Part shown: positions 28,301-61,300 of the stretch, piece by piece | How the letters are laid out: each line of letters begins with the position of its first letter | Position numbering within the stretch: position 1 is the stretch's first letter | Assembly (NCBI GenBank): GCA_963402885.1 | Contig: OY727103.1 | Location: 12,364,085-12,428,084, forward strand | DNA: 64,000 nucleotides | Source: Antedon bifida | Lineage: Eukaryota; Echinodermata; Crinoidea; Comatulida; Antedonidae | Reading direction: 5' to 3' | The notes under the pieces: model-generated | Database searches by the model: none | The model's input: only the letters and a program-made list of their open reading frames with translations | What the model was told of the DNA's origin: nothing | Made by a program: the position numbers and the translations under genes

Positions 28301-28644
28301 TGTGAGACTTGCTCCTTCAGTCAGTATTTTTAAATCACGACTGAAAGCCCATCTGTTCTCATCCGGTATTAATTAACTTATTCATTCATTCATTTATTCC
28401 TTCCCCGAAACCTTGACTCAGAAATACCGGGATGGTGTCCGGCGGGGGATAGTTTTACCTTAGTTAAGCATAGTTAAGCTTAATTACATTTTTTTTTCAC
28501 ATTATTGATTGTCTCCATCCCCGAAACCTCGACTAAGAAATACCGGAATGGTGTCCGGCGGGGGATAGTTTATTACCATTAGTTAAGGTCTAATGTAAAG
28601 CACATAGAGGGGTCAGTGATCCATTAGGCGCTATATAAATACTG

Positions 28645-31307: not shown

Positions 31308-31347
31308 TTGTAGGGCGATAAACGTGCCAATCGGACCTTGAAAAACA
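31308..31347. repeat. Leftover duplicate of the exon 2 acceptor region (copy 6; also in copy 7)
   Basis: GGGCGATAAACGTGCCAATC followed by GGACCTTGAAAAACAG repeats the first ~25 nt of exon 2 plus its acceptor, about 150 bp upstream of the true exon 2. The same leftover is at about 36978-37018 in copy 7. It could act as a decoy acceptor but is too short to encode a real exon. Confidence 0.6.
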
Positions 31348-31630
31348 GAAAATATTTAATACATAATTAAGAGTCAAATCACCCATAGCAGTTATTTAGT
31401 TTACTAATCGGAGGATCCGGTCCAGCACATCCATTTGAAATCAATGTGTTGAGTTATTCATTAATCGTAATGATTTTCTATTCACACTCCCTTAATGTGG
31501 TATGCAAAACCCACAAAAATATTGTATCTGTTTTTTCCTTGAAACTGCGCCGTTGTTTGTCTGTTTTGTTTGATATAAATTAAGACTTCAGAAGGAATAC
31601 AGGCCTACATATCTAATTAAAGAATCCACA

Positions 31631-31770
31631 GGTCTGTCTACACTATTAAACTTTATGTGACAACAAAATGTGATGTGACGTGGCCATATATGGACATGAT
31701 GATGTCATATCACGACCATATTTGAGCACATTTTTTTTATCAAACCAGTTTGATAGTGTAGACAGAGCTC
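31631..31770. mobile_element. MITE family B in intron 1 of copy 6
   Basis: Left end GGTCTGTCTACACTATTAAA and right end GTTTGATAGTGTAGACAGAG are inverted. The centre has GGCCATATATGGACATGATG. The same insertion is present at 37299-37438 in copy 7, so it predates the duplication that made copies 6 and 7. Confidence 0.8.
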
Positions 31771-31929
31771 AGCAGTGTAGGCCTAAACATGATGCTTCAA
31801 CTACTTGAAGTAACTGATTAGTGATTCATAATATAAATACATGGAGACATATTGAGACATAATGTAGGACATAGGCTAGTTACGCCTTCTACCAGTTCCT
31901 AACGTACATGGTTGTTAGGCCTACTACTA

Positions 31930-34035
<2,106 letters not shown>

Positions 34036-35110
34036 AATTAAATTATTAAGTACAAATTATTTACCGAATAAATGTAGAATTGTATTGAGTAGACTGGATG
34101 CTGCTCCTAACACTCGTAAACCTGCATTTAATTCGTCTGCTAAGTCATTCAGATAAACACCAAAACATAAAGTAAGTCCATCAGTTAAAATCAAAACAAT
34201 ATGCGCACCGATCACCAACACAACGGTTCTCAACACAGATGCTTTTCTTTCTTCTCTTTCCTTCATGTTTTCGGCAACAGTAGGCCTACGTTCCATTGCA
34301 ATCAAAATCAACTACTATTTACGTAAATTATGATCGATTATTTTGTCAATGACACGGCGGCCTAGCCGCCATGATTGCACAGGTATATCACAATAGCCAC
34401 TTGATATCAGTGAGACCACCGTTCAATCAACTAACCAATTCATATCGATGTCACATCTTATCAAACCTTGATATTGCAAATCTATAACGGAGTCGGAACA
34501 AATTAGCCTATTAGCAATCACGATTATATTGCGTCATATCCGTTTTGCGCACATATTATTCACTGAAACCTGGATTTGTACCGATAATATTAATTAAAAA
34601 ACAAATGATATTCAACGGGAATACATAATAAACACTCACGTAAAATTATAATTTTACGATTTAAATTTAACAAATAAATAATACGTAAATTCTAAAACGC
34701 TATTTTATGCATAATAAATTATATACATAAATTGACTAATGTGACTGTGTTACTGTATGTGATTCTAATTTTAATGTTATTTCTAAATTAAATTTTTTCC
34801 GAATTTTCAAATTAATGTATGTTTTTTCTGCAAATAACGGAAAACAGTAGGCCTACGGATCACAAGTTGACGAGCCAGTATCATATTGAGTGTGCGATCA
34901 TTTGAGCGCGCGGCTATTGAGTCCTGAAAATACGCTAACACGCGCGCGGCTATTGAGTCCTGAAAATACGCTTTCATGCGCGCGGCTATTGTCCTGAAAA
35001 TACGCGTAGAATGACTTTTTGACTTGACAGCAGCATAGTGGCACGTCAATAAAACAGGATTTGAACCAGGACATTCAATGACGTTTCAGCACCGGCGGCC
35101 GTGTATATAT

Positions 35111-35375: not shown

Positions 35376-37828
35376 CTATTTTAAGTAAATTCTTGGCAGC
35401 ACTTGAAACAAAAAGGCAACGAAGAACAGTGATCCCATAGCGAAGAAAGCGGTGTCGTACGAACCAGAAACGTCATAGATCCACCCTGAAAAACAACAAA
35501 CATTAATTTATAAGTCGGCCTATTATACGACAGTACAGATATCTTTTACACATTTATAGGCCCGGCCTTATTAGATTATTAAACTTACCTGTAAAGAAAC
35601 CACCAACCACACCAGAGGGCGCAGTACTGAACAGTAACACACCCATCGCTTTGTGAAAGTTCCGAACTCCAACAATTTCTCTCGAAATAAGGTAAATAAG
35701 CGGAAGAGATCCACCAACCGACCATCCTATAATGAGAATGTTTCCAGCTAAAGATGCGTAGCGTGTGCAAAACGGTATCAAGAACGTACAGACACTCGCC
35801 GTTAATAACGTTAAAGAGAACAGTTTGGAAGACGTGATTAAGTTGAATTTAATCGGAACTCCGTTAAACAGCCGACTTACGAGGTTACCAATACCGAAAA
35901 TTGTCATTAAAAGTGCCGCGTTGTGTTCCGATATACCGATGTCTACGGCATGGGATACAAGATGGTAAGCAGTACCAATAAACGATACATAAAATAAATT
36001 CGCTATAATCAACATGAATCCAAAAAGAGGATACGTTAGCGGTAACTTTAAATACTCTTTCAATAATTCTTTTGTTCCTTTTTCCTCTTCAATTATCTCC
36101 TTCTTTTCGTCATCATCAGCGCGTACTTCAATAAACTTCTCATCTTCTAAATAAATAGTCTTTCTTTCCGTTGTTTTTGGATCTTTGAAAATAACCACAC
36201 TAATCACAGTTGCATGGAGTACACAGGCCCCTAGGAGTAGTAGAGATCCTCTCCAGCCATACATTGATCTTAGTACGTTTATTAAGAAAGGAAAGGCGAT
36301 CAAGCCAACAGCCGTACCAGCCGATACTACACCATTAGCAATTGAAATATTCTCGTCACAGGTAATTCCTATAAACGCAACCGTGTTTGAAAATACCATT
36401 GAAACGCCAAAACCTGCAGACAAACAAAAAATAAAAACACATCTGACTTTAAATAGCCTACATGTTGAATGACAGTACGTAAAAGGGGATGTAATATATT
36501 TGGCAGATTTCCTAGCGGAGTATATTCAAGAAAGGAATCTAGGCCAATGCAATTTCTTCACCAGTAGGGTTTAATTTTCCACATAAAGATCAGATTTGTT
36601 TTGTTTTAAATCGAAAATGTTGTTGGTTTTCACAATTTAAATACGTGTTAAGGCCTATATTATTCAAGGACATCATCTTGGATAAACAAAAAATACAATT
36701 AACATAATTACCTGTTATTAACGAAAAACTGATAAATAGTTGCCAAACAGATTGCACTTGAGATGACAAGATAAGACCAACTGATGTTAGTAATGTACCC
36801 AACATTATAGTTCGTCTATATCCAATTTTGAGGGCGATTAACGTGCCAATCGGACCTAGAAAAACAGAAAATCAATCTTTTAAAACATTTTGACATTGCC
36901 CTGCAGCTGTAACAACCCCTTTCCGGGCACACTCTCTTATTGAGCGGACTACTTTGTGGGTCTCCGAATAAGAATTTGTAGGGCGATAAACGTGCCAATC
37001 GGACCTTGAAAAACAGAAAATATTTAATACATAATTAAAAGTCAAATCACCCATAGCAGTTATTTAGTTTACTAATCGGAGGATCCGGTCCAGCACATCC
37101 ATTTGAAATCAATGTGTTGAGTTATTCATTAATCGTAATGATTTTCTATTTACACTCCCTTAATGTGGTATGCAAAACCCACAAAAATATTGTATCTGTT
37201 TTTTCCTTGAAACTGCGCCGTTGTTTGTCTGTTTTGTTTGATATAAATTAAGACTTCAGAAAGAATACAGGCCTACATATCTAATTAAAGAATCCACAGG
37301 TCTGTCTACACTATTAAACTTTATGTGACAACAAAATGTGATGTGACGTGGCCATATATGGACATGATGATGTCATATCACGACCATATTTGAGCACATT
37401 TTTTTTATCAAACCAGTTTGATAGTGTAGACAGAGCTCAGCAGTGTAGGCCTAAACATGATGCTTCAACTACTTGAAGTAACTGATTAGTGATTCATAAT
37501 ATAAATACGTGGAGACATATTGAGACATAATGTAGGACATAGGCTAGTTACACCTTCTACCAGTTCCTAACGTACATGGTTGTTAGGCCTACTACTAAAT
37601 TAAATTATTAAGTACAAATTATTTACCGAATAAATGTAGAATTGTATTGAGTAGACTGGATGCTGCTCCTAACACTCCTAAACCTGCATTTAATTCGTCT
37701 GCTAAGTCATTCAGATAAACACCAAAACATAAAGTAAGTCCATCAGTTAAAATCAAAACAATATGTGCACCGATCACCAACACAACTGTTCTCAACACAG
37801 ATGCTTTTCTTTCTTCTCTTTCCTTCAT
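35376..37828 (-). CDS. Monocarboxylate-transporter-like protein, copy 7, C-terminus cut by a SINE
   Basis: Exons 37627-37828, 36712-36855, 35589-36413 and 35376-35485 join to 426 residues. The start is the ATG at 37828; the frame is open further upstream only through a TTG. Membrane helices are complete: LILTDGLTLCFGVYLNDL, LKIGYRRTIMLGTLL, MYGWRGSLLLLGACVLHATV, then GWIYDVSGSYDTAFFAMGS. After LPRIYLK the inserted SINE supplies the last base of TAG (35376-35378), removing about 20 tail residues. A separate deletion has also removed the old stop region near 35088. Since the last helix is intact, the protein may still work. It is the twin of copy 6. Confidence 0.84.
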
Positions 37829-38723: not shown

Positions 38724-38740
38724 ATTGATATAAATCAACA

Positions 38741-40318
38741 GCTCTTGTGTAGTTTGCATCAATGGCAGTATCCAGTCTATCAGCTGAGCGTCTGTCAGTT
38801 CACCACCATATAAGGGATCAAACATCATTTGAAGACTTCTGATGACATAAACTACTGTGGCAGCTCTTGTGTAGTTTGCACCAATGGCAGTATCCAGTCT
38901 ATCAGCTGAGCGTCTGTCAGTTCACCACCATATAAGGGATCAAACATCATTTGAAGACTTCTGATGACATAAACTACTGTGGCAGCTCTTGTGTAGTTTG
39001 CACCAATGGCAGTATCCAGTCTATTAGCTGAGGGTCTGTCAGTTCACCACCATATAAGGGATCAAACATCATTTGAAGACTTCTGATTACATAAACTACT
39101 GTGGTAGCTCTTGTGTAGTTTGCACCAATGGCAGTATCCAGTCTATCAGCTGAGGGTCTGTCAGTTCACCACCATATAAGGGATCAAACATCAATTGAAG
39201 ACTTCTGATGACATCAACATAAACTACTGTGGCAGCTCTTGTGTAGTTTGCACCAATGGCAGTATCCAGTCTATCAGTTGAGGGTCTGTCAGTTCACCAC
39301 CATATAAGGGATCAAACATCATTTGAAGACTTCTGATGACATAAACTACTGTGGCAGCTCTTGTGTAGTTTGCATCAATGGCAGTATCCAGTCTATCAGC
39401 TGAGCGTCTGTCAGTTCACCACCATATAAGGGATCAAACATCATTTGAAGACTTCTGATGACATAAACTACTGTGGCAGCACTTGTGTAGTTTGCACCAA
39501 TGGCAGTATCCAGTCTATCAGCTGAGGGTCTGTCAGTTCACCACCATATAAGGGATCAAACATCAATTGAAGACTTCTGATGACATCAACATAAACTACT
39601 GTGGCAGCTCTTGTGTAGTTTGCACCAATGGCAGTATCCAGTCTATCAGTTGAGGGTCTGTCAGTTCACCACCATATAAGGGATCAAACATCATTTGAAG
39701 ACTTCTGATGACATAAACTACTGTGGCAGCTCTTGTGTAGTTTGCATCAATGGCAGTATCCAGTCTATCAGCTGAGCGTCTGTCAGTTCACCACCATATA
39801 AGGGATCAAACATCATTTGAAGACTTCTGATGACATAAACTACTGTGGCAGCACTTGTGTAGTTTGCACCAATGGCAGTATCCAGTCTATCAGCTGAGGG
39901 TCTGTCAGTTCACCACCAAGGGATCAAATATCATTTGAAGACTTCTGATTACATAAACTACTGTGGTAGCTCTTGTGTAGTTTGCATCAATGGCAGTATC
40001 CAGTCTATCAGCTGAGGGTCTGTCAGTTCACAACCATATAAGGGATCAAACATCATTTGAAGACTTCTGATGACATAAACTACTGTGGCAGCTCTTGTAT
40101 AGTTTGCATCGATGGCAGTATCCAGTCTATCAGCTGAGGGTCTGTCAGTTCACAACCATATAAGGGATCAAACATCATTTGAAGACTTCTGATGACATAA
40201 ACTACTGTGGCAGCTCTTGTGTAGTTTGCACCAATGGCAGTATCCAGTCTATCAGCTGAGGGTCTGTCAGTTCACCACCATATAAGGGATCAAACATCAT
40301 TTGAAGACTTCTGATGAC
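38741..40318 (-). repeat. 122-bp tandem array derived from the last coding exon of CFAP54 (13 units)
   Basis: There are thirteen units of 122 bp (two of 128 bp, one shortened). Each contains the coding text of the terminal exon: on the minus strand every unit can read LQMMFDPLYGGELTD and LIDWILPLMQTTQEL. The first unit, at the high-coordinate end, is the actual exon. As 122 is not a multiple of three, the frame is lost in the next unit. The last unit (below 38860) continues into unique sequence that keeps the frame as ELLIYINNKIQMQ and then stop. That probably preserves the ancestral C-terminus. Confidence 0.92.
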
Positions 40319-40342
40319 GTCCAATGAAACATCAAATGGAAT
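40202..40342 (-). CDS. CFAP54: CFAP54 exon 41 (terminal coding exon, first unit of the 122-bp array)
   Basis: The acceptor TTCTTTATAG precedes IPFDVSLDVIRSLQMMF, then DPLYGGELTDPQLIDWILPL and VQTTQELPQ, with stop TAG at 40202-40204 lying in the second array unit. The entry phase (0) fits exon 40, which encodes SQLKQCMVYIQNLLTNV. The final PQ is created by the repeat junction. Without the array the protein would end ELLIYINNKIQMQ, as still readable in the last unit. Confidence 0.85.
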   Translation of the reverse strand: MPFDVSLDVIRSLQMMFDPLYGGELTDPQLIDWILPLVQTTQELPQ

Positions 40343-43300
40343 CTATAAAGAACATTAATGTAATGTAATGTTCAAAATAATACCAACAAAAAGCTCAGTC
40401 TACAATATCAAATTAGTTTGACAAAAAAAGTGTGATGTGCCCAAATATGGTATTGACATGCCCAAATATGTTAGTGATATGACATGTCCATATATGGGCA
40501 CATTTTGATTGTACTTAAGTAGTACTTACTTCTATTGCAGAAGGTTCAACCTCAACGTTTGTCAACAGATTCTGTATATATACCATACACTGCTTCAATT
40601 GAGACTGTAAGGACATTTTTCATTATTAATAATCATCATTATTTGTAAGAAAAGTTTGTGGTACACCAGTGTTAAAGTAAAGTAAAAAATGTCTCGACAA
40701 TTCTGATGCGGTTACAACCATCTTATTCTAGCAGCGCATACACACACCGCCAACCTCACTTTACCAGTGCTTTGTTCTCAATGTGCAAACAATAATATTG
40801 ATAAGACAGTGTTAAATTAAAAACAAATTGATAAAGTCAATACCTACCTACATATCTCGTCTTGATTGTTCTTTTTGTCTTTAGAATCTACGCAAATTAT
40901 TGTTTTCATTTCCATAAACTTTTTATTATACCACAGCAAAAACTCAGGTTACTTACCTCTAAATTTTCATCTCGTTGAACTTTAGCAGACAACTGACTGA
41001 TGCGCGCTGTTCTTTTGGACTTGCGAGTAGACGGTTTGCCCGTACTTGGTGGCGTAATTTGTTTATCAGCAACTTTCGGCTTGTCTGATAACGACATCTC
41101 TGCATTTTGTTTGAGTCCAACAAGTTTCTTATGAAGAAATGTAACGTGTGTGTACTGTAAAACACGCTTTGCACAAGTTTCGTTGGTGACAGTAGACGAC
41201 GTCTTTGATGTGTATGTGTAAAGAAGAAGGATGGTGTCATTAGACGACGAGGTCAACGCACTTCTATACCATTGAACGCACAGTTGTTTAGCCGCCTTCA
41301 GTGCCGGAATCTTATTGTTATACTTGACCGGTTCCTTGACCGCTGGTGATTTCTCTTTAACGTTTCTAATCGGGATATCTGGTTGAACCGCTGGTTCAAT
41401 TGGAGCAAGATGCATTTGAGGTGGAGGATAGATAGCACCGCATTCTGACGCGTATACTGATAAGTGAGTGCTTAAAAATGAGTGCATATGCTTAAGTCGT
41501 AGCGCAGCGGTATCTGCTAATAATGGTAGTCTGACTACATTCCTGCTAGTGCCAATATCTGCTGCTGTTGATATCTCAACATCTAGTAGCTTTGTATCTT
41601 CAGTAAGTTTCTTGTCGTCTGCTGTTTTCTTGTCGTCTGCTAAGCAGTCATTGATGCCCACAGCCGACATACTGCACATACGCTGTAGGATTGACGTATA
41701 GCTAATGAGATGTCTCCAGGTCAGTTGAGGTTCTTCCATTTTAGCATCCCACTTGTAGTCTTCACTCCCTTCAGTCACAGGGTCTAAAACATTCTTGCCG
41801 TCCCGGGAGTGTACACGCAAATCATCAAGCCCTAAAATAGATGATTTTTTTTCACTTACTGTATTTATTTATAGTGTGATTTATGGAACAGTTTAAAATA
41901 TTCTAGGCTCAGTTAAATCACCTAATCTCTTCTCAGGGTTTAGTATTGTATTGAATTGATTTCTTTTAGTTGTACTGTTTTTTTTCTGTTATTTTAACAT
42001 CGCTATTATATTTATTTATCAATTGAACAAGTTTGCCTTTAAATTATTTTCTATAACATCACTGTTTTATTAGAGCCCATTCACACTTTACACATAATTA
42101 TAATGGTTGTGCGTGGTATCAATTTTTAGATAGACCAAATTAATTTCCTGTAATTTAAATGATGCCTTGTTGCACTGTTTTTTTTCTGTTACTTTGATAT
42201 GGCTGTTATATTTTGCCGTAAATTGAACACATTTGACCTTTTTCTTTAACCTCATACTGCCATTTTATTAGAGCCTGTTCAGATTTGTGTAAATCTTTAG
42301 TCCCCAGAGTAATTTAGGTTACAAATGTAATTGCATTTAAAGTGCGAACACAGCTTTAGTTAATGAAGTGAAATAATACCTTGTTCTGCTGCCACCATGA
42401 GGTCTTCTTTCAAGAAGCCTGGTATTTCATTCCTCACAGCATCCTTAGCAGGGATAGTGGTCAATGTAGCGTCACCAATAAGAAGGGTGAATCTACGCTG
42501 TGCTTGGGCTATCAAGGTAGCGGCACATACAGCCTGCCATGCCGCGTGCGATTCTTTCGTTCTCTCTCGTTCCCGTTCCTTCTCAATTGTTTCTTGTTTG
42601 CTGACCTTTTTATTTGATTTCTTAGCAGATGAAGATGGCTGTGAAATTTATTTACAAAGGAATTACATTTTCAAATAATCTTAAAAGGTTGACTATGATA
42701 ATATTATGAATTCTCCACATGCTATTAATTTAGGTCTGGACAATGTTGAGATAACATTGTGAACTAAAACACAAAACAGGATTTAATTGTTTGGAAAAAG
42801 GAAGCTTAACCTAAAGCTCTGTCTACACTATCAAACTTTGTGACAAAAAAATGCGATGTGCTCAAATATGGTAGTGATATGACATCAGCATGTCCATATA
42901 TACAAGTTTGATAGTGTAGACAGAGCTTAATGTTCTATCACAATTTAGTGTTTTCTGTTTAGATGATGGAAAAAGAAACATAAAAAGTATGAGAACATTA
43001 TGTTTTGTGTAGTTTTACTTTAAATTCAAGGTCGCATTGGGTTGAGGATAAGTTGTATTTTTACCTTAGCTTGTTGTGACATTGTAGTAGGCCGCATTGG
43101 GTTGAGGATAAGTTGTATTTTTACCTTAGCTTGTTGTGACATTGTAGTAGGTCGCATTGGGTTGAGGATAAGTTGTATTTTTACCTTAGCTTGTTGTGAC
43201 ATTGTAGTAGGCCGCATTGGGTTGAGGATAAGTTGTATTTTTACCTTAGCTTGTTGTGACATTGTAGTAGGTCGCATTGGGTTGAGGATAAGTTGTATTT

Positions 43301-46300
43301 TTACCTTAGCTTGTTGTGACATTGTAGTAGGCCGCATTGGGTTGAGGATAAGTTGTATTTTTACCTTAGCTTGTTGTGACATTGTAGTAGGCCGCATTGG
43401 GTTGAGGATAAGTTGTATTTTTACCTTAGCTTGTTGTGACATTGTAGTAGGCCGCATTGGGTTGAGGATAAGTTGTATTTTTACCTTAGCTTGTTGTGAC
43501 ATTGTAGTAGGTCGCATTGGGTTGAGGATAAGTTGTATTTTTACCTTAGCTTGTTGTGACATTGTAGTAGGCCGCATTGGGTTGAGGATAAGTTGTATTT
43601 TTACCTTAGCTTGTTGTGACATTGTAGTAGGTCGCATTGGGTTGAGGATAAGTTGTATTTTTACCTTAGCTTGTTGTGACATTGTAGTAGGCCGCATTGG
43701 GTTGAGGATAAGTTGTATTTTTACCTTAGCTTGTTGTGACATTGTAGTAGGCCGCATTGGCTTGAGGATAAGTTGTATTTTTACCTTAGCTTGTTGTGAC
43801 ATTGTAGTAGGCCGCATTGGGTTGAGGATAAGTTGTATTTTTACCTTAGCTTGTTGTGACATTGTAGTAGGCCGCATTGGGTTGAGGATAAGTTGTATTT
43901 TTACCTTAGCTTGTTGTGACATTGTAGTAGGCCGCATTGGGTTGAGGATAAGTTGTATTTTTACCTTAGCTTGTTGTGACATTGTAGTAGGTCGCATTGG
44001 GTTGAGGATAAGTTGTATTTTTACCTTAGCTTGTTGTGACATTGTAGTAGGCCGCATTGGGTTGAGGATAAGTTGTATTTTTACCTTAGCTTGTTGTGAC
44101 ATTGTAGTAGGCCGCATTGGGTTGAGGATAAGTTGTATTTTTACCTTAGCTTGTTGTGACATTGTAGTAGGCCGCATTGGGTTGAGGATAAGTTGTATTT
44201 TTACCTTAGCTTGTTGTGACATTGTAGTAGGTCGCATTGGGTTGAGGATAAGTTGTATTTTTACCTTAGCTTGTTGTGACATTGTAGTAGGCCGCATTGG
44301 GTTGAGGATAAGTTGTATTTTTACCTTAGCTTGTTGTGACATTGTAGTAGGTCGCATTGGGTTGAGGATAAGTTGTATTTTTACCTTAGCTTGTTGTGAC
44401 ATTGTAGTAGGCCGCATTGGGTTGAGGATAAGTTGTATTTTTACCTTAGCTTGTTGTGACATTGTAGTAGGCCGCATTGGGTTGAGGATAAGTTGTATTT
44501 TTACCTTAGCTTGTTGTGACATTGTAGTAGGTCGCATTGGGTTGAGGATAAGTTGTATTTTTACCTTAGCTTGTTGTGACATTGTAGTAGGCCGCATTGG
44601 GTTGAGGATAAGTTGTATTTTTACCTTAGCTTGTTGTGACATTGTAGTAGGTCGCATTGGGTTGAGGATAAGTTGTATTTTTACCTTAGCTTGTTGTGAC
44701 ATTGTAGTAGGCCGCATTGGGTTGAGGATAAGTTGTATTTTTACCTTAGCTTGTTGTGACATTGTAGTAGGCCGCATTGGCTTGAGGATAAGTTGTATTT
44801 TTACCTTAGCTTGTTGTGACATTGTAGTAGGCCGCATTGGGTTGAGGATAAGTTGTATTTTTACCTTAGCTTGTTGTGACATTGTAGTAGGCCGCATTGG
44901 GTTGAGGATAAGTTGTATTTTTACCTTAGCTTGTTGTGACATTGTAGTAGGCCCATCGTCAGCTTTGACAGGCATGTTCAGTATGTTACTTCCTTTTAAA
45001 TAAGCCTCTGCTATCTCAAGATAGGCTTCTTTTATTAATCTATAAAAAAGATGTGAGTTATTTTATTTGTCTTGTTAAAAACTACTATGCAACTCATAGT
45101 GTAAATGAATGACACGTATTTTGATATTAAGGAGCTTTCGTTTTTGCAACGACCAAACGTCACATTAATTCATTGTGCGCATGCGGATATATTATGAGGT
45201 GTTTCCTCGCTCCTCACCTGTTTGATGGTTTTCAGGCGAACACCGACTACACATCGATTGACCTGATCTAGGGCGGTCATTGGACATTGCAAATTGAACG
45301 CTCCCTATTGATTGGTTTAATATTGTTTAAAGGTTTGCATGGCAACACTAGTAAAGTTAGTTTCCAAAAGGAAATCAAATGTGATTTCTCTATTAATTCA
45401 ATAAAGCAAAATAATCATTAAATTATTAGGTTGAATCACAGAGACCTCCATGGTTAAAAACAAGACAGCTAGAACATCCTGTTTTTCCAGCACATTCAAA
45501 TTTATTCTTTTGTTTCACTCAAAATTGACTTTGTTTTTTATTTTAATTAAACTCAAATAACCTTAGTCATTAGGTAATTATTGGTGACACACTTTAAATT
45601 TTGCTTTGATTGTTTTTGTTCTATTTTTGCGACCTTTACTTTATTAAACATTATTGAATAAAAGTACTCAGAGTGTAGTGGAGGAATAAGATCACTAAAA
45701 ACCAACTCGGGAGAAAATTAAACATGTTTAAAGTTCTCGCGATGACCTAAAAACTACACCCTACGCTATCTCAAGATAACTCGTCCAGTCGGGATTCAAC
45801 TCAGACAGCACCGACGGGCAAAGGCGTTTCGACGAGCCTCGTAGTACATCGCTGTCTGAGTTGCCCTTTAGTGAATTGACTTACTGAAGATCATGGTTGG
45901 AAGTAAAGCTGGTTGAGATGGCTTGGATGAGTGTATCAACAACAGATCTACATGAACACAATCCACATTTGAACAGTTGCTGTTCTACTTTACCTGGAAT
46001 GAGAGACAATCAAACTATGTTATACCAATCTAACCACAGGATGCTGAACTCCAAAGATCAAAGGGTTTATCTGTGGCAGTGACATGATCAAACCCCTTAA
46101 TAGACACCGTGCACCGCAGAGAATATGTACATTGTACAGTACTGTTGGTATTTGTCGCAGGCAGACATAAGATAAAAGGACTGTTGTGATCTTGGCAAGA
46201 CAAGCTCAGTGTCCTGTTGTTAGATTGCCTTGGTATACAATACAAGACACACAGACAAAGTGCCAGGGTGGTACCTGGGAACAGACAAAGTACCAGGGTG

Positions 46301-49300
46301 GTACCTGGGAACAGACAAAGTGCCAGGGTGGTACCTGGGAACAGACAAAGTGCCAGGGTGGTACCTGGGAACAGACAAAGTGCCAGGGTGGTACCTGGGA
46401 AAGCCTTTTAAACCCCCAAAAGTGCATTTATATCCTATGGGTCTCAATGTACGCCTTTAACAGATAATTTAAATTCAATAAAAAGCTGAATAAAATAGAA
46501 AATCTATAACAACAATATAGTATACAATACAGTATAGTATATAATTGTTGCATTTGTATTTTATCCATTTTTTATGACACTATTCTCATGCTAGTGTCTT
46601 TTTGGTGCTTGTATTTGTTATCCATGACAAGCAAGACACCTTTCGAGCCAGCGTTTGACAAAATAAATTAAATAAATATAAATAAAGTAACATACCAAAG
46701 TTAAGGAGTATTTCTGCTTGTAAGGTTGGGTTTGTACGAACGCACAGTTTGCTGAGTGACAAAGCACTTGCTAACACGTCACCACTTAAGCGCCACATAT
46801 TAGTTGACTCCAATTCATTCCTATCACGAGAAACAACAAACAAAAGAATTTTATGTTAAGGTTAATCATGAGGAATTTTGTTTTATCTTGTGTGGTGGGT
46901 TTGTCCCAATTCTCTGTTATAAATATGTATAGGTACATTTATTAAGTATTTAAGAGCATCTGAGGAAACATAATGTACATTCCTATTAACAATATTTATG
47001 ACACTAGTCCAAACACCTACCTTAAGCTAGCCTCCCTTGCCAGGGTATGACCAATCCTCATTTTCAGTTTCACCAATAGCAGAATATGTGGTAGGTGGAT
47101 GTTCTGGAACGGGAAGGCTAGGCTTGATAATGATGGCTGTACATTGTGTATCTCAATACACTCTCCAAGATACTTCAGCTGAAACAAAAATAAAACGATT
47201 GAAAACATATTATTGTGAGGTGTACTACAAGGTTCTTTTTAATAACCATTCGATTAATTATTAAATACCATATTGCCAACAATAAATAACAATTAAGGAA
47301 ACAAGCCTGTTTAAACTGTTAAGTCCAATTTACACAGACAAGCGGTAACGGTAAGCAGAAAACCTTGTGCTTGTCCCACGTAGAATCTTTATTCATCGTG
47401 AGCTGGTTTCCACTCAACCGTTCATCCACGTGTAAATTTCAATTACAGGATAAAAAATAAAATGAAGTTATCATGTGAGGGGAGGGTCATATAAGAGAGA
47501 AAGAGAAAAGTTTGACCCACCCCAAGATATAACATTAAATACGAATTCATAGGAAATAACACAGAGTCTACATTTTTATTTTTCGTTTTCCGTTACCACT
47601 TCGCCTGTGTAAATTGGCCTTTGGTCAGTTTTTTTTTAATAACCGCACTAAGTATTACTAACCTGCTGTAGTAGCTTATGTTGCACTGCACAGTAACTCT
47701 GCAGTGTAGTCTGCACAGCTGATGACATGTTTTCATCTTCTGGGATGACTAAAGCCTCCAAATCAGTTAGATGCGTTCTTGCAAGGCACAACAAAAGAGA
47801 GGCTTCTGGAGAGAGTGTGTGCAGGTCATTCAGTAGGTCTATCACCTCCTGCAAACGAACATGTTATTAAGAAGACAGTGTAAAGGTTATAGAGGGTCAA
47901 CTACAACACAGTCACAGCTCAACAACAATAGGGGACCAACAAATATGGCTGCACCAAATCGGCCAATCAGGTTGAAGTTATAGCATATGGTTCAGACAAA
48001 AACCAACTAATTTTTCTAATACTTTACACATCTTAATATTGTATTGTTTTTGTATGTATTTTTATCGTGTTTTTTAACCTTGGAATACAAATTACTATGT
48101 ATTTGACAATATATTTGAAATTTAACTTGGTAATTATTATTTTAGTATACTGTTATTAAAGGCTTGTATTAAAAAAACTACCTTCAATGTTTCCTTGACA
48201 TCCGACAGTGATCGGCCTTCTTGCAGGTCCAAGAGGGCGCCCTGCATCAGAAACTCTGCTTGCAGTTCAATGTCTCCGCATGCCTCGGCTTCTGTAAGTC
48301 CTTGCATACAATGATCTCTGCATTCACTTAACTCCAGTTTGTTACAATCAACATCTGAAAGAAAAAGCATATTTCTTACTTTTATACTCCATTGGCTCTC
48401 AAGCAAGCAGTTACACTTCATATTTTAAATAACTATAAGACTTCCATCTTCCATTAAATTATTCACGATAAAGAATTATAATGAATACTTATTGGACAAA
48501 TACTTTGGTTATTAGTAGTCTCTTCGTATTGTTTCCTTTTACGTTAGTAATTATGCTATTATTCCTTTATGAAAGCGCTACTAGTGGATGTTTTGATTGG
48601 ATATTTCATCATAACTTTCCAAGTCAAGTATAGGTATGACATGGCATGTGTGCCAAAATTTTAAACATTAAGCCAAATGTAGAGTAACTGCTCACCTGAT
48701 ATGCGCCCCATACCCTTCACGCCAGTCATCAGGTTCTTCACAAGCATCAGCCTGCTATTTAACCACAGCCTGCCATCAAGGCGTGCCCGACTTTGAGAGT
48801 TCTGGTACTGGAAGTGACTAGACTGGATATCCTCATTGTCATCATCAAGGGAGTACAAAGATAGTGGCGGTATATGCTGTCGACTACCTTTCATTGATGA
48901 AGTTCTGTAAAATGAATGACAGAAAGTTCTGTAAAATGAGTGACAGAAAGTACTGTAAAATGAGTGACAGAAAGTACTGTAAAATGAATGACAGAAAGTA
49001 CTGTAAAATGAATGACAGAAAGTTCTGTAAAATGAATGACAGAAAGTACTGTAAAATGAATGACAGAAAGTACTGTAAAATGAGTGACAGAAAGTACTGT
49101 AAAATGAGTGACAGAAAGTACTGTAAAATGAATGACAGAAAGTTCTGTAAAATGAATGACAGAAAGTTCTGTAAAATGAATGACAGAAAGTACTGTAAAA
49201 TGAATGACAGAAAGTTCTGTAAAATGAATGACAGAAAGTTCTGTAAAATGAATGACAGAAAGTTCTGTAAAATGAATGACAGAAAGTTCTGTAAAATGAG

Positions 49301-52300
49301 CGACAGAAAGTTCTGTAAAATGAGTGACAGAAAGTTCGGTAAAATGAGTTATGTTGACTTTTAAAATAAATGTTACATAAACTATATCATCCAATTTTAA
49401 AAAATTGTTTTTATTTCATACACATCCAAAAGTGAGCAACACAATGGATAACTATTTTATAATTTATCATGCTCATTTGAGGCATAAGGAGTGGAGAAAG
49501 AGTTGTGAGTACTCCTGTTGCAACTAAACCCTGAACGTTGGGATTGGAAGGCAAGCATGTTTACCACCAAGCTACAGCTTGATAGTTGTATTATTTACCT
49601 GAAAGATGTGGTTGTCTTCTTTGTAGGTATTTCTTTGAAGAGTGAGCTTGATTGTATTGCCAGCATAGCAGAGGCAACTATGGAAGCCGATTTGGATGCT
49701 AGTTGATGTTGGCAGTAAATAAACCCCAACTCTAGCTTACCAAGAATCACTAACTCTAACTCAGATGCATGTAGAGATTCCGTACCTAAAGATAATATTA
49801 ATTTTCATTGTGAGTCATTGCTTATTGATGAATGTCTAGTAACAACAATTTATAACAAAAACTGATAATAATAATTTGATCCTAATATGGATAATAATAA
49901 TCTATTTTGTAAACCTTTTTCTTCCATGCAGTCTACCAAGATGTGGAGAAACCGCTCAGCAGTACTCAACAGTACTCCCTGTGAAGACATAGAAACACAA
50001 CGTTTAAACAAAATGTGTAACGCAGGAGGTATAGGCCCCTGGTTTACACTCTTTGGAGGCCCTCTAACATTGGGGCTGCTCATGCTCTGGGGCCCCTGGG
50101 TTTAGCCAGTGAGCACTCATAGCCGTTACTTAATTAAATTGAATTGGATTTTAATTGTAATACAAAATTAAATTTATTGACACTAGAAAAGACTAACCTT
50201 GATTTTTTCTAAACTTGGTGAATTTTTTCCCAATGAAAACCTTCCATTGTCATTGCGTACCTTTACACTTTCGACAGACACCTCATCCACGGAAGAAGTA
50301 GCTAGATAAATTAAAAAACGTAAGCAAAAGTTTTAAATTTTGCCACATGGATTGGATGAAAGGAGTAATGATTTGATTCAGCTGTCCTTGGGTAAACTAG
50401 ATATTATTTCTTTATACTGGGTAGCCTCTTCAGTCAGAAAATGTTCTGCCAGAGGGTCCAGTTAGTGGGTGTGTGAGCGGTTAAAGGCAGGGACAACGCA
50501 ATCTATAGCCATAAAATCGGCACAGGTTCAAGACACTCCTCGACCAGTAGTTCTGGTGGTAAAAGAACCTAAAATTTATGGTGTACAGATCTGACACACC
50601 TATAGATCACAGGTCATTCACACTCATTCAAAGTTTCATTCTAGCAAACTAAGTATTCTCACCTAATGCATCCTCAATGGTAAGTCTTGGTGTTATTATA
50701 ATCTTGGCGTCTCTTTCAGCTTTACGAGATAACACAGATGTCTGCACTTTACAAATGCTGCTCCCTGCAGCGCTGCTTGTTTTCCTTGTTTCTTTCGCAA
50801 CATCAGGTATACTGTAAACACAAATGAATAATGACAGGGAGGATCAATTCAACATTGCTAATGGAGGAGTCAACCAAGGCAATTATGCAAAGATAGGAAC
50901 TTGTGCAACAGTTCTTTGATCTTATGTCTGGCCTCGACAAACACCACAGAACTGTACTATAATCTTATTACTGTTTCATATATATATAAGGCAATCTAAC
51001 AGCAGGACACTGAGCTCGCCTTGCCAATATACGAACTCATAACAGTCCTTTGTCCATAATATTTAATAATATATACTTACACAGCTTCTTCTCTTGATGG
51101 TAGAACAGGAATAGTATCAGCAAGGACAATCATGAGGTGTGATTGGGCTAGTGACAAGTGGCATGTAAGATGAGGACCGTATAACGTGGCCAACGATGGC
51201 GACAAACGTTTCTCCACCAAAGTATTCAGTATCTACAAAACATAAATATACATGAGTCAGTCAACAATGCTTTCCTTATAATGAGTGGAGTTGTGGCTTG
51301 TTGACAGTTGACAATAAACTATACCTTTAGGTTGATGGCATCTGTAACTGGCTTTGCTGTGTTAAATTTCAAGGTTGTCTGAAAACAAAAAATAGAATAT
51401 TACACCATTTGAATCAACTATCCTCTTTAGTTGTGTGTAATACTTGTACTAGAGTCAACTCTCCCAATACCAGACACCTTTGGGCTGGCCAAATATGTCT
51501 GGTTTTCTGGAAAATCTAGTATTCGAAATGTGAACCTTTTGGACCTCGAGAAAAGTCTGGTTTTGGGAGAGTTTTGGGTTTTCAGAGAGTTGACTATACT
51601 AATATTTTATAAATTAAATAATAAGAATAAAAAGTGGTTTTATTTACCATTGTAGTTGAAACGAGTCTAAAGTTACTATCAGCCGTTTGAGGAAGGCGTT
51701 CACCATTTAGAATCCAAGCAAGGACAGTTAGTGCTTCTGTAAACAGCCCAAGATCTGTCAATATTCTCATCTGAAAATAAATTATAATATGAAGATTATT
51801 TGTTGTTCACATAAATATCTTGCGTGTGAGTGGCCGAGCGGTTAAGACAGTGGAACAGTAAATACGTAGCCATAACATCGGCAAGGGTTTGAGCCTCACT
51901 CGCTCCATGGTTCTACTGGAAGAATGAGTCTTCTCGGATAAGGACTATAAACCGTAGGTCCGGTGTACACATTCACACACACACACTCATGTGCACTATA
52001 AAGAACCTAGTATATCTTTCGAGACGAGTAGGGGTACTAGTACATCACAGTCACTGATACATGACAGAGCCGTCTGGAAGACCAGTCTTCGACTGAAGAG
52101 GTTACCCAGTAAAACTAAATAATACAAAACAAAACATCTTTTTTGTTAATAGTATATATTGCCAAATGCTACCTTTAGAATTCTGCCGTCAATTGCACGT
52201 TGAAGATCACGGCAGATGAACGTGGTGAAATAGTTGTACAACGTAAGGAGAGGCAGAACCTTATAAAACAAAAATAATAATAAAAAGGGAGAACTGGGGA

Positions 52301-55300
52301 GAGATAAGAGCGGACAAAAGACAACTAGCTGATTTCCAATGTAAAATAAAGGTTTAAAAATATTGGTAAGTTTAGTTGTTAGCAGTGATGATAAAGTCAC
52401 ATCTTATATGCTTTTATTTATTTATTTATTTCTTTCAGTGATACATAAAAAGGGAGCACTGAGGAGACAAGAGCTGTCAAAGACAACTATCGCAAATAAA
52501 GAATGTGACTCTCCAACTTATTGTACAATATATGGAACAAAAAAGAAGTGACATAATTTATCCAAAGATATACCTACCAGTAGATTGTGTCTCCCCCGAA
52601 ACAATTCTTCAGTGACCCATCTCAAAGATGACACCAGAGTTCTTGCCTCGCATCGGAACCGGTCAGACAGAAGGTCAACACCTGGAACAAGGTACTGCAC
52701 CTCGCAGCCTTCACCGATGTCATAGAGGGCGTAGTCACGATCAGCGGTGGGATGCGGGAGTGAGGTACGAAAGATGGCCTTGAACAGGTAGGCTGATAAA
52801 AAACAGCTTTCCATGCGTAGCCCCAAGTCAGATGTTAAAATATATCTATTGAAATAAATTAATATTAGTAAACGTATCTCCAGAATTAGAAAGACATTTT
52901 AGCATTGGTTTATATACCATTTAAAGAGTGCTCAAGGCGCGTAAATAAAATGAAATTCAATATACAATATCTGGCTTAACAATACGCAATGTTTTTGGAA
53001 GAACAGAACTCCACCACCAATACTCACTGAGCAATCTTAGACGCCAGAATGGCACCAAGAAGACATCCCCACATGCCGCATCTCTGTAACAGCTGAGTGC
53101 TGATGTCATCTTCACTGTTCTTGCCAAGGACTTGACGCCACGTGCTGAGTGTGTCAGAGGTCAGCAAAATCAGGTCTAGCCCCTCTGACCACCACTTGTA
53201 CGCAGCTCTGAAAAGATATATATCAAATTATAAACTAAATGATATATATAATAATATGATAAATAAGTAACAGTTATCGAACTGTAGTTCATAATTTTAT
53301 TTTAGTTGTTAAAAGAGTGGGGGATGCGCACAAAATACAATTTCTTGGATACGTTCCTGTGATCTTCAACTTGTCTTGAGTGAGCTTGGTGGTAGATAAT
53401 CATGCAAAACTGCATTCATAACTCCTTAAAGCTCTGCCTACACTATCAAACTAGTTTAAAAAAAGTGTGATGTACCCAAATATGGTAATAATATGACATC
53501 ATCGTATCCATATATGGGCACATCACATAAAGTTTGATAGTGTAGACAGAGCTTTAGATAGTAAAACACACATGACTCACCTGCTATTGCCAGCATGATA
53601 GTAAAGGTTCCCTAGTTCATGACTTCCCTGAGCTGCCAAATCCTTGTGTTTTCTTGATAGTAGCATTTCTGTGAAGAAGTGAAAAAGAATATGGCTTGAA
53701 TTGGTTTTTTTAGTTTACCTCAAGCTCTGTCTACACTATCAAACTTTGATAAAAAAAGTATGATGTACCTAAATATGGTGGTGATATGCCCAAATATGGT
53801 AGTGACATGACATCATCATGTCCATATTATGGCCACATCACATTTTATTTTCACATAAAATTTGATAATGTCGATAGCGCTTTTTTCAATGACACATGTA
53901 ACAAAAACGAACCCTACCTATTGTTTTAGTATACGATGACATGACAACAGCAAGCTGTGACCGAGGCAGAGCTGGGGTTTGAATCTCACTCATGCTTGTG
54001 AACTCTGAGTTCTTAAGGTCAGGGGGCACATCTCCTTGTGTGTTGTCATCTGTCTCAGTGAAGTCTACATGACTTTGTCGACTTGTGCTAGAGCCTGAAG
54101 GAAAATTATCGGGGATGAATTAGCATGTAGTTGAAAAGTAACATCTGAGTCCACAGTTCATAGAGACTATTTGTATTATGCGTTATACAAATTTAAAACC
54201 ATTAATGATAAATGGTGAATAGGGAGAGCCTAAATGAAAAAGGAAAATCATATGAGATGAATTAGTAAACAATGAGAAATGGTCATGAGGTAATTTCCGA
54301 TTGATTGTAATCAAAACAGTACTGGGTTTGTTCTACTATCGTTCCTGCTCCCAAAAGTCATCAGGAATGAATTAATATACAATGATAAATGGGGAATATT
54401 TCTATAAGTCGAAAGCTGAAAGGAGTCCGGGTTTTGAATAGAACATTATTCACCAGTGTATTTACAAAGCAGAGCATGCAATAGTACATTCAGAAGTTAT
54501 AATTTGAGAAAATAATGCATGACAGGTGATCAAATCAACCATTCAAATGGCAAGAACACATATTCAGATCACTGGACATCAATCAGAACATTTCTTTTTC
54601 TAACAGTACCCAGAATAACCTAGTACATCTTTCAAGACGAGTAGAGGGTTACCCCAGTGTACTAGTACACACACACACACACAGCCACTGTCACACACAA
54701 CCACTGATCATAACTGGGCCCTCTAGGAGAACAGTCTTTGACTGAAGAGGTCATCCAGTATAAAGAAATAACAACAAAAATAATAATAACAAATCTTGTT
54801 GAGTTATTGTAACATTAAATAAACTTACATATCTGCTGTCCAGCTAAGTACAGAACAAGAAGCTTCCTAGAGTGTTGCAGCGCCCTTGATGTGTAGTAAC
54901 AAGTATCAAGTGCTTGGCGGAAGTTCTGAAGACTGTCAGTGACATCTAAAGGAACACACACCAGCTTCATAGCATCACGGGCACCTGCAAAATATAATAC
55001 AAGTTGACTTCTTTAACAAGGTAGAAACTTCAACAATAAGACTAATAATCAACCATTTCTCTTTGATGGCTGGATGGCTATGGATTGGTCCATAATAAAT
55101 AAGCATACATACCTCCATAGACATTGTGCCCCTCAGGGTCTATTCTACCCCCCATGTCTAATGGTTCCAACTCCCTATCCTGCATATTGCTTATAACATA
55201 CGTACCTCCATAGACATTGTGCCCCTCAGGGTCTATTCTACCCCCCATGTCTAATGGTTCCAACTCCCTATCCTGCATACTGCTTATAACATACGTACCT

Positions 55301-58300
55301 CCATAGACATTGTGCCCCTCAGGGTCTATTCTACCTCCCATGTCTAATGGCTCCAACTCTCTATCCTGCATACTGCTTATAACATACGTACCTCCATAGA
55401 CATTGTGCCCCTCAGGGTCTATTCTACCCCCCATGTCTAATGGTTCCAACTCCCTATCCTGCATACTGCTTATAACATACGTACCTCCATAGACATTGTG
55501 CCCCTCAGGGTCTATTCTACCACCCATGTCTAATGGTTCCAACTCCCTATCCTGCATACTGCTTATCAGATGTACGTTCATATAGTTTTTGACTGTGATA
55601 GGTTCACCAGTGATTTCATCAGGAAACTTAAAAGCATTCTGAGGGGGTTCTGGTCCGCCATATGCCTTGACCCTTGACCTCAGTTTCTGCTGGGCTTGAC
55701 AGATCAACGGCCCAACCTGTTCTGAATATCGTTCACTGTAACATATAAATAAATGAGTTTTATTATCAGAATTTTCTAATGTCTCTTCTGTTTCCGTATT
55801 GCTGAAAATACATCCAAACATAAAGAGTGATATTTCAACATGATTTACACCATTTCCACACCTATATAGATTAATCTTACTCTATTGTATTTTTTAGCCA
55901 CTTTTATCAGAGAATGTTTTGGTGCAATTTTTCTGTGTATTTTAACTGTTTTATTTATGTTATGCCAGTTTTCAAAACAAATTTCTGTTCATTATTGAAT
56001 GGACTAATAACTATGAATACTGTTTTTCGAGACTCTTTTTTCACTTACTTTGTGAGAACATTAAATCTCATAGCCAAGTCAGCAAGTCGCTCCCATTGCT
56101 GCTCATAATACAGCATTTCCAGCACTCTCAGAACGATACGTCGGATCCAGTGCTTGTCTACCATACTGCAATCGTCCATGTACTTCTCAAATTTCAAGCT
56201 AGCGCCCCCAAGTTCATCGGTCACTGTCCCCATCAGGTCACTATTCACCATATCTTTCATACTTTTCTTGGACTAAGGAGAAATAAAAGATATTAATATT
56301 AGAAAAGAAATAGTATTAATGTTGTAACATAATGGAAATAAATGAAAATGTAAATATCTTATTTTATTTCTTCCTTTTATTAAGTGCTATTTACATAGTG
56401 CTTGACACATTATTAAGTACATAATAAGTAAGTAAGATATTTTGTGTTTTTTTGTACTTTTCTTTTCAAACAAAAAAATCCACTTTCCAAGTGTACTGCA
56501 AAGGTCTCTAAAAAACTTGCAACCACCTAAACCATAACAAACGTACTGTACCTTGGAGCGGCTGTCATTTTGCAGTACATTCAACATGTCCAAGTGTACC
56601 ACAAAGGTCTCTAAAAACATCGCAACCACCTATCATTTAAAGCATAACAAACTAACTGTACCTTTGAGCGGCTGTCATTTTGCAGTACATTCAACATGTC
56701 CAGAATGCAGTCAGCAGCCACAAAGAATGGCTGACAGACGATAGATCTGATGGCTTCAACAGAGAAGATCCCGGAGGAGTACCCACCAGCGAAGCTATAC
56801 AGAAGGGCAGTGTGAGCACAGTTCCACATGGCTCGGGCGGCATTCTGTAACAAAGTCCAATGCTGTCCTCTATGGGCTAACACCTGGACGGAAAAAAAGA
56901 AGGTTTTTAATTGAGTTGAGTGGTCGAGCGGTTAAGGCAGGGGGGCTGCAAACGGTGCAAACTATACAATCAGCACAGGTTCAAGACACTCGACTATAGT
57001 TCTGGTGGAAGAACAAGTCTTAAAACTGGAGGTCTAATGTACACATGTGGCTCATGTGCACTTTAAAGTACATATTTCGAAAGAGTAGGGGGTTAACCTG
57101 GTGTGCTGGTCCATTCAGCCCATGTCGTTGTGAAAAAACGAAAGAAATTGTCTTTGACCTTTTAATATTAAACTTACAACTGCCCTCTTGAGGTTGTTGA
57201 AAGCCTTGTTTAAATCATTTGTGAGAGCCTGCAGTGAGACAGCATTATATTCCTGATGATTATGATGTCTCTCTTGTCTACCAGGCCTGTCTACTTCAGT
57301 TGACCGATAAGTTGGTACACTGTCTGACTGTTTATCATCAGGAGGGGGTGGTAGCTTCTTCAACTTTCCACCTGAAAATAATGTTAACAAGGTTAAAGGT
57401 CAACTATGTCAGAATGCCTTGCCTGACATTCATAGCTCTAGAGGTTGTAGGTTGAAAACAGCATTTTTTTCACAAATACTCTCAAATTTAAAGGTTTTTT
57501 TATTTTATATATATAATTATTTGTTGTTTTGGCAAAAAATCTGACTTGATATCCAGACACAACAATAAGTTTATTTAGCATAATTTATTTGTACATTATT
57601 ACAGTCAACTCTCCAAATACCGAACTTCCTGAAAACTGAAAACTTTCCCAAAACTAGCCTCTTCTTGAGGTCAAAATTGATTTTTATAATTTAAAGCAAC
57701 CAAAAAGTGTCTGGTATTGGGAGAGTTGACTATATACTACTTTTTGAATAATAATAATACTGTTCAATTTATATAGCACAAAATACAGGGCGCCTCTAAG
57801 AGCTGAACAATCAAAATGTAAAAAGCACAAAATTAACTAATTAGATATATTAGATAATTCTAATACAACATACCGACAGTAGCGGCAGCTGCCACTTCAA
57901 TAGCTGACTGATGAACTCTCAACCCTTGCTTTCCTATGTTGATTTGGTGTAGCTTCTTAATTATAGCATCATTAGCGCCCTCTCTTGTATCGTCCTGACG
58001 TGTAACGGCTCTAGAGGGACCACCATCCCAGCCTACCACTAGAGTTCCTGACGTCTCAAATGTGATCCATTCATTGTCAATGTAAGAGGACCTATTAAAA
58101 CAAATTTGGATAATTAAAACTAAAACATAAATTGAATTGAAAAGTATGCAAAAGTACACCGGCAGTGAAGTCAACTGATACTAAGTATCCGTCAAAGAAG
58201 AAGATGGCTACAAGAACAGTAACAGCAAAATACAACAAATAAGCACAAAGCCTGAAGTAAGCAAAGTAATAACAGTTAACTCTCCCATTACCAAACTTTT

Positions 58301-61300
58301 AGAATTAAAGACACATTTTGAATACCAGACTTTCCAGAAAACCAGACATATTGGGCAAGCCCAAAGGAGAGTTGCTATTTATTTATTGTTGAACTTGCTA
58401 TTGTTTTTAGCTTTCACACCAGTCCCACCCTATTCCACTTATATTTCCAGTTTCGTGGACTTTCTGCATTCTCACTCCTGAGGACGATCAAAGCATATTG
58501 ATCGAAACGTCGAGAGACTCAACAGTTCTTTTCAGAACTAAATATACGTGGTGTACTGCAAACTATATATCGACAATAAAAGTGCGGCGTACCTGTAGAT
58601 GTCACCTGACGTGGGTCCAAGCAGTTTGTTGCGTTTCTCCACTTTGTTTAGAAACTGCGCAAAGAAGCACAGACCTTGCAGGATGTTGAGTTGACATCGC
58701 CATGGTAACTCATCGGAGCAGATATTCCTCAATCTCTGTCTTCTCTTCATTGTACGGTAGAACTCTGGCAGAGTTCTGTCAAGAATTTCAAATGACTACA
58801 AAAAAATAATCAACATTTATATTAACATCAAGGCTGTGGATTAGTTAGGGAGGGAGACACAGAATTGTAACTTTGTAGGTGGAGTGTACTGTGAAATAAC
58901 TTTGTGTTTATAAACATTTTTTTAAATATTTATTTCATTCTGTTGATCAAGTGGGTCAATCAAGGATAAAAACACAAAAAAGTACAAAAACATCTTATTT
59001 CCACCGTGGTCCCTAAATAAAACACCTTAAATAATTAACAACAGAATTGTAGAATAAACATATCAAAAATATAAAAAGAATACACCAAGAATTGATACAT
59101 AATAATATTATAAATCAAGATAGTAAATACATACCTTTAATTCTTTCTCTTCCTGGGATGCTTTAGCAGCTTCTGACATCCTCTGGTTTGACCTCACGTG
59201 AACCAGCAGTTGGAACTTCTTTCTCTTCTTTCTTGGACTCTTTCCATCTGGTGACTTCAGGTGGGACTTGTTAATCTTAAACACAACAGACATTTTTTTA
59301 ATGTATGTGGGCATCTAATCAAACGATATTGCAAGTGTTTGCAACTTTCCTTACAAAAAAGATTTATATAAATGTAATTGTATTACTCAGTTGAAGAAAA
59401 TTATGATTGGTCCCTCTCTATGGAGCCATGGCAACCACGTCTATCATGATCTACTCTTAAGCTTGGTTCCCACTAGGGCACAATGCAAGGACAGAAACGC
59501 AATGTAAGCGTGTTGACCAATGACATGACAAGTGAATAATCCATTGCTTGTGATGGGTAAACTCACTTACGTTGCGTTACGCCCTTGTGTTGAGTCTCTA
59601 GTGGGAACCAAGCAATAGGGTTGTGTATCAAGTTCTTTAGCCTGAACATGGGACTAACGGCTTTACATCTCATCTGAAGAACGAGGCAATACGAATACAC
59701 TATCTTGCTTAAGGATACAAGTAATATGGAACACACATGCCATATTTACCTTTGAGAATTCAATAGCGGCAGCAGCAAATTTCTTGGGGTCATCGCCAGC
59801 TACTGTGAGGGCGCCCTGCTGTTTGGTGAGGATTAGCTTAGCTGATGAAAGATGTTCATTACGTCTAAACATATATAACAAAACAAAATAATAATAATAA
59901 TAGTTCATTCTTATATAGCGCATATAAGCAAGCTGCGCTGCACATTATTATCCCGGTCATAATAATGCAGCAGCAATCAGCGCAAAGTTGTGTCTTGATC
60001 TAATCGGTACCCATTTTATACACATTGTTATGTTACAAAACACAATATTTTGTATTATTTATCTGTAATTAGGGATAAGGGATGACTTGAAAACAGCACT
60101 AAATTACACTGGCACACACCTGGGATAAATGGCATAAAATAGTAAGAATGCTATGTTTAATGACGATGACACAATATATGTACGAAATATCATCATCATC
60201 ATCATAAACCACAAAGACATTCTCAAACATTTACCTGAGGAGCCATGTTTTGGTTTCATCGCACCATTCAGTTGCTATGTCAACTAAACCTTCACTCAAT
60301 GCCTTCTGCATGACTTGAACAAAGAATTCCAAATACCGAGCACGACGCCGGAATTTAACAACTAAATAAATACGTAAATTAAGCAGAAATATTTTTATTT
60401 TTGTTTCTAAAGACAGTCATTTAAGCAGGGTGAAAAAACAAATGTCCACTTTAGGATAGAATAGACACCATTATTTCCACTTGTTTTGTGGATGAAATAA
60501 GTTATCTTATCTTATCTTACTTGCCTTGTACCTACATATTTTTTGTGTATTGCTTACCTTCTTTGTATGCATGTCTGCTTGGAAGAGTTGCTATAAACGC
60601 ATGTAGAATGTTTGGGTCTTCTGAACCTGTCAACTCATTCGTACTGTGAGCTGGAAAAGCAAGTCATGAATCAAGAAATTACAAAGTGTCATGTGCCTAA
60701 ATATGGTAATGATATGCCCAAATATGGTAGTGATATGACATCATCATGTCCATATATGGGCATATCACATTTTTTTGTTACATAAAGTTTGATAGTGTAG
60801 ACAGAGCTTTATATAAAAACAACTTGTTGAGAATAGCAAGAGAGAAGTAATTGGAGAACTTTGGAGGCGGGATCTCCTGATCCTGAAGAAGATGATGATT
60901 TGATAGAATTACCTAGTTTTGAGAGCTTCAACATGTGAGCTTCCAGAGCACGAAGTTCTTCATTCTGAGGTCCTTCGACGTTGAACGTCAGCAGACCTCC
61001 TCGTTTTACTTTTTTCTTGCGGTGTGACTGAGCTCCACCAGCATTCTCATCGGTCTCAGCAAATTCAACAACGGTTTCCTGTGCCTTGGGTTTTTCTGAT
61101 TCCTAGTCACAATTATATTAGGAAAAAATCAAAAAATAATTATTGTAATCATATAAGGAGACAAAAGAGACACTATGCTATTTATGGAATTGAAAACGTA
61201 TCTTAATTATTTACTAGGATAAATTTTGTGAATTTTAACAAACTATGCCTACACTATCAAACTTTATGTGACAAAAAATGTGATATGCACATATATGGAC

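Follow-up and report, generated by a model that had tools for sequence, protein, structure and literature searches.

Why should a single gene carry several tandem arrays that lie across its exon-intron boundaries, and which of the repeated splice sites would the cell use? The question is raised by a stretch of 64,000 nucleotides from the crinoid Antedon bifida (contig OY727103.1; C16:12364085-12428084 of a genome of 315.6 Mb in 27 contigs), which we call the window. A first-pass annotation of the window claimed that four tandem arrays in the gene CFAP54 each engulf an exon-intron boundary. The arrays themselves are real, as Tandem Repeats Finder (TRF) recovers all four on this minus-strand gene, and three of them, with units of 93, 60 and 24 bp, do cover a boundary. 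The fourth, with a unit of 122 bp, does not, its acceptor lying outside the array. The naming of the gene also holds up: PDB chain 9ijj_H, itself named CFAP54, matched at E 3e-41 and 2e-78, and the protein is 92% identical to Antedon mediterranea CFAP54 over 100% of the searched part and 76% identical to that of Anneissia japonica. We believe the arrays are probably minisatellites of the kind known as 'mirages', begun by chance slippage across junctions and tolerated, with the site nearest the exon still usable.

The coordinates of the features are collected in the table. The 93-bp unit consists of 82 nt of exon end and 11 nt of intron start. Four copies share the border TATGGAG|GTACGT, and the fifth and last has a donor variant of its own, GTATGT. 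The donors score equally in all five units (7.3, with a median of 6.0 for 47 donors of the gene). The 60-bp unit is built the same way, its border GCTAAG|GTAAAA dividing 29 nt of exon end from 31 nt of intron start, and its donors score an equal 6.2 in the seven of 32 units that were listed. The 31 units scored in this array fall into three types (A, B and C) separated by single-letter differences, and a clear edge effect is absent. The 24-bp unit holds a whole acceptor (CATTTTACAG|). Seventeen of its acceptor copies score above 3, with a range of 3.7-5.1 that lies below the median of 6.2 for 47 acceptors of the gene. To these can be added two cases with only two copies. One is the weaker example at the end of exon 15 that had already been pointed out, in which a 110-bp repeat takes in the exon end and its donor, giving donors at 56662 and 56552; the other is a decayed duplication of 79 bp across an acceptor. 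Neither 110 nor 79 is divisible by three. The 30-bp array serves as a control within the gene. It had been described as an ordinary intronic minisatellite, and indeed no verified splice site was found in it and A. mediterranea CFAP54 has no match there.

Repeat features of CFAP54 and its copied piece, in window numbering
Feature	Position	Strand	Relation to the gene	Method or note
93-bp array, x5.0	55099-55566	-	over donor of exon 55485-55735	TRF
60-bp array, x32.1	43029-44953	-	over donor of exon 44925-45039	TRF
24-bp array, x18.7	48900-49347	-	over acceptor of exon 48696-48904	TRF
122-bp array, x12.9	38739-40318	-	inside terminal exon	TRF
110-bp repeat, two copies	56486-56702	-	end and donor of exon 56662-56883 duplicated	
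79-bp repeat, two copies, decayed	acceptors 67602 and 67681		acceptor-spanning, upstream of exon 67388-67602	in flanking locus L009
30-bp array, x5	46251-46401	-	intronic	TRF; within-gene control
Inverted partial copy of exon 44925-45039 and its array, 5 units	8815-9343	+		self-BLAST, ~95-96% identical

The first evidence on which site is used comes from the protein of a close relative. At the position of the 93-bp array A. mediterranea CFAP54 reads ...NVYGG|ARDAMK, joined, and an extra unit is absent. At the 60-bp array it reads ...SQQAK|PSSSAKK and at the 24-bp array ...TPFR|TSSMKG, in both cases joined with the unit absent. The joins rest on this one protein; alignments of the Anneissia japonica (28% identity) and Patiria (45%) proteins extend into the arrays at low identity, and we take these extensions to be alignment artefacts.

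The second line of evidence comes from a different gene. GMPPB lies about 3 kb beyond the left end of the window (357 aa from joined predicted exons; PDB 7d72_K, E 5e-173), and nine units of 54/50/50 bp cover its donor after ...VGQW (QW|VRM). The phenomenon is not peculiar to CFAP54, since GMPPB nearby has the same structure. Reading through from QW meets a stop within the unit in eight of the nine units, the first among them, and the ninth stops past the array. Because of the stop in the first unit, a normal protein can be made only by way of the exon-proximal donor.

The unit-free joins in A. mediterranea and the stop in GMPPB both support use of the exon-proximal site, and we infer that this is the site chosen by the spliceosome and that the arrays arose by slippage. 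The following sequence of events would account for them. Tandem-duplication slippage or unequal exchange would start by chance on a short stretch that crosses an exon-intron border, and this stretch would then expand and homogenise. Every duplication would keep an intact site adjacent to the exon, the 5'-most donor or the 3'-most acceptor, and the remaining copies of the array would go out with the intron. Since the other copies would leave with the intron, neither the length of the unit nor its frame would need to be conserved.

It could be argued instead that the arrays are coding. If in-phase arrays were variably spliced into CFAP54 mRNA, the protein would be polymorphic in length, with repeats of 31, 20 or 8 residues. 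As the first-pass annotation stated, the units of the three largest splice-site arrays (93, 60 and 24 bp) have lengths divisible by three and read through without a stop in the frame of the exon, and the copy donors that were listed equal the exon-proximal donor in strength. However, the CFAP54 models of A. mediterranea and Anneissia japonica are without units at these positions. Use of the whole 60-bp array would create an exon of 1975 nt, far beyond the other exons of the model, and GMPPB tolerates such an array where coding is impossible. We consider coding length polymorphism highly improbable.

The frame also bears on why the arrays are tolerated. Seven sets of units span a junction (93, 60, 24, 110, 79, 35 and 50/54 bp, the 35-bp set being described below), and three of the seven are divisible by three, about the one third expected at random. 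On this count, and on the stop inside the first unit of GMPPB, we rejected maintenance of the frame as the cause of tolerance. The choice offered for these arrays had been between tolerance, on the grounds that all outcomes stay in frame, and a process that favours the amplification of junctions. Tolerance is the better supported of the two, but the reason given for it does not stand.

A second use of the repeated sites would be dual-specific splicing, in which each unit acts as both donor and acceptor in the manner of the polyubiquitin UBC gene, yielding introns of multiples of the unit and so intron gain by tandem duplication. The 93- and 60-bp units do have AG|GT, and the principle is published: in the available text of the papers, tandem units with AG|GT occur, as here, both in the UBC arrays (PMC10809524) and in the tandem genomic duplications that yield new introns (PMC3443670). 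The crinoid units differ in that their predicted acceptors are too weak and a new intron is not evident. The acceptor scores are -0.02 and -2.2 (two units tested per array), and the minimum among 55 training acceptors is 1.4; the joins, moreover, match the A. mediterranea protein. Since the predicted acceptors fall below all 55 training acceptors, we rejected dual-specific splicing for the 93-bp and the 60-bp unit, and we regard it as an extremely unlikely account of the arrays.

The 122-bp array belongs to the same discussion even though it covers no boundary. The array begins at 40318, 24 nt inside the terminal exon (start 40342), and the gene model places no splice site in its unit. Copy 1 holds the coding end ...QELPQ followed by the stop TAG, which is the same protein end as in A. 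mediterranea and Anneissia japonica (...PELPQ), and copies 2-13 follow downstream. An AATAAA stands at 38723, directly beyond the array, and 122 is not divisible by three. As judged from the gene model, this array would be the 3'-end counterpart of the tolerated junction arrays, with its extra copies coming after the stop codon.

Are there more arrays on junctions than chance would put there? A mutational process that favours amplification at splice junctions, for example via co-transcriptional structures, would make junction arrays over-represented. In its favour are the three arrays and two two-copy cases in CFAP54, the array of neighbouring GMPPB, and the candidate from one of 18 sampled loci. 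The answer varies with the counting rule. Our model of CFAP54, built from a home-made exon finder and tblastn with proteins of relatives, extends from ~73.8 kb, in L009 and 9.8 kb past the end of the window, down to 38.7 kb and has about 59 exons. The finder was trained on CFAP54, so its result of 56/56 is not independent. For the chance test the list comprised 59 exons, 7 of them with hand-set ends off exact GT/AG. With the arrays collapsed there is one junction per 262 bp, and a randomly placed unit covers a junction with a probability of 0.09 (24 bp), 0.23 (60 bp), 0.35 (93 bp) or 0.45 (122 bp); these probabilities increase when units wholly within exons are barred. Among CFAP54 arrays of at least 2.7 copies, 3/6 hold a splice site where 1.34-1.64 would be expected (P 0.11-0.20). 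Lowering the threshold to 1.9 copies, which brings in the two-copy cases, gives 5/10 against 2.39-2.92 (P 0.056-0.124). Once every CFAP54 array counts, then, P lies between 0.056 and 0.20, and all P values for this gene are uncorrected for its having been picked by the first-pass annotation.

Outside CFAP54 the sample, which is not random, combined the flanks of the window with 18 loci of contig C1, each 10 kb long and spaced 1.5 Mb apart. The test there took in 277.5 kb with 46 arrays and 170 predicted junctions, the exons being kept by an arbitrary score. Five arrays matched a junction. GMPPB is verified by homology, a second match is the copied CFAP54 exon, a third (L025) rests on ab initio prediction, and the remaining two concern doubtful predicted exons; an AG acceptor is absent from the CFAP54-exon copy and from both doubtful exons. 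The L025 match, found in one of the 18 C1 samples, is a 35-bp array at L025:5920-6538 over the donor of a predicted exon. In the PDB nothing matches the peptide of this exon at an E value below 0.97, and Pfam assigns it to no family, leaving the exon unverified. GMPPB and L025 together make two matches against 1.67 expected (P 0.50), and the verified case alone makes one. It is also important to realize that a junction anywhere in an array was counted as a match while the expectation was that of one unit, a looser rule that favours matches. A process aimed at junctions seems to us unlikely. Arrays with a period of at least 15 and at least 2.7 copies number 22 in 220 kb, the loci flanking the window included, or about one per 10 kb. 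We attribute the clustering of arrays in CFAP54 mainly to its many junctions combined with this density in the sampled parts.

Several points weigh against chance slippage with use of the exon-proximal site. Without the 122-bp array, 3/5 CFAP54 arrays of at least 2.7 copies hold a splice site, against 0.89-1.14 expected (P 0.035-0.072). Outside CFAP54 the raw count is 5/46 arrays against 1.67 (P 0.028), and 4/30 against 1.19 among those of at least 2.7 copies (P 0.033). All three large splice-site arrays of CFAP54 are in phase and open, which by length alone would happen 1 time in 27. The comparison with A. mediterranea was made with its protein, and its gene may hold arrays that are spliced out; the use of splice sites was judged from sequence. 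When identical donors compete, splicing often takes the intron-proximal one, and this would place units in the mRNA. As to the counts, junction arrays are not clearly in excess: there may be a mild excess, and a strong one lacks support. That junction amplification exceeds chance genome-wide in crinoids and that the three large arrays of CFAP54 have also stayed in phase through the use of alternative sites within them, giving a protein of variable length with isoforms that differ by whole units, is in our opinion very unlikely.

The 60-bp unit occurs at a second site in the window, the inverted copy in the table, which sits inside the neighbouring transporter cluster and has more pieces at 7501-7852. 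This site carries the flanking exon and is therefore a copied piece of CFAP54; on this evidence, which covers the window, we rejected the idea of the unit as a satellite with no tie to the gene. Five units are present in the duplicate at 8.8-9.3 kb and 32 in CFAP54, a difference that points to turnover between copies and, in one assembly, not to alleles. When window 7501-9343 is set beside 42926-45524, the inverted duplicate is seen to hold pieces of the upstream intron as well, and 3 nt are deleted from its first unit.

The surroundings of the gene can be described briefly. MFS transporters are clustered to the left of CFAP54 (MFS_1 at E 1.5e-23 in the one open reading frame (ORF) scanned), with several MFS-transporter-like genes in tandem duplication across window 2339-37870 on the minus strand and a 2.25-kb repeat between 29694-31943 and 35377-37610 (97.65% identity, self-BLAST). 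A Pfam scan of nine short ORFs of CFAP54 itself matched no family. Inside the cluster are long ORFs at 25473-28373 (+) and 32316-34037 (-); from their motifs we take them to resemble the endonuclease/reverse transcriptase of a non-LTR (long terminal repeat) retrotransposon. Short similar elements are dispersed at window 40390-40503, 42812-42928, 53427-53883, 60683-60812, 61240-61343 and 62189-62317. Some of these have inner 21-bp repeats (CATATCACTACCATATTTGGG-like) and apparent inverted ends, and the 21-bp unit is present again in L014 and L031. They are presumably a family like the miniature inverted-repeat transposable elements (MITEs). Two of the sampled loci are dominated by repeats of other kinds. 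In L021 (C1:13000001-13010000) a 102-bp tandem array fills all 10 kb, with one open frame that is Thr/Ser-rich and mucin-like, and at L017:8189-10000 the minus strand of a 23-bp array of about 72 copies, which runs to the end of the stretch, contains a long open frame.

The first-pass annotation knew of no named system of this kind, yet one has been published. By their structure, the junction-spanning arrays of CFAP54 and GMPPB probably belong to the 'mirages', minisatellites of amphioxus that span exon-intron boundaries. The available text of the amphioxus papers gives units of 10-72 bp in Adh3, 150-160 bp in the globins and 60 and 108 bp in PGBD5 (PMC3087553, PMC3902484), adds TnC and PGBD5 to the list of mirage genes (PMC3902484), says that reverse-transcription PCR showed regular splicing and considers that mirages might be general in cephalochordates (PMC3087553). 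The likeness lies in tandem units that contain an exon end and its splice site, as in the 93-, 60- and 24-bp arrays and the 110- and 79-bp cases but not in the 122-bp array. It extends to the presence of both 5' and 3' boundaries in several genes (donors and acceptors of CFAP54, the donor of GMPPB) and to similar unit sizes. The differences are that the host is a crinoid rather than a cephalochordate, that there are up to 32 copies with several arrays in one gene, and that the crinoid case is known from DNA. Minisatellites at exon-intron borders, termed variable internal tandem repeats, which may stay in the exon or be removed by splicing, also occur in human segmentally duplicated genes according to the part of that paper available (PMC2812944); those, in contrast, lie in young primate paralogs with transcript support, and the crinoid genes are conserved ones. 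Within the portions of the open-licence literature available we recognised no report of mirages in echinoderms.

The nine near-identical donors of GMPPB and the 32 near-identical, in-phase units of CFAP54, each with a donor, are natural tests of how a splice site is chosen. That a crinoid should have mirages both in GMPPB and in a conserved gene of the cilium suggests that minisatellite turnover may produce such arrays as a general side effect in the intron-rich genomes of deuterostomes.

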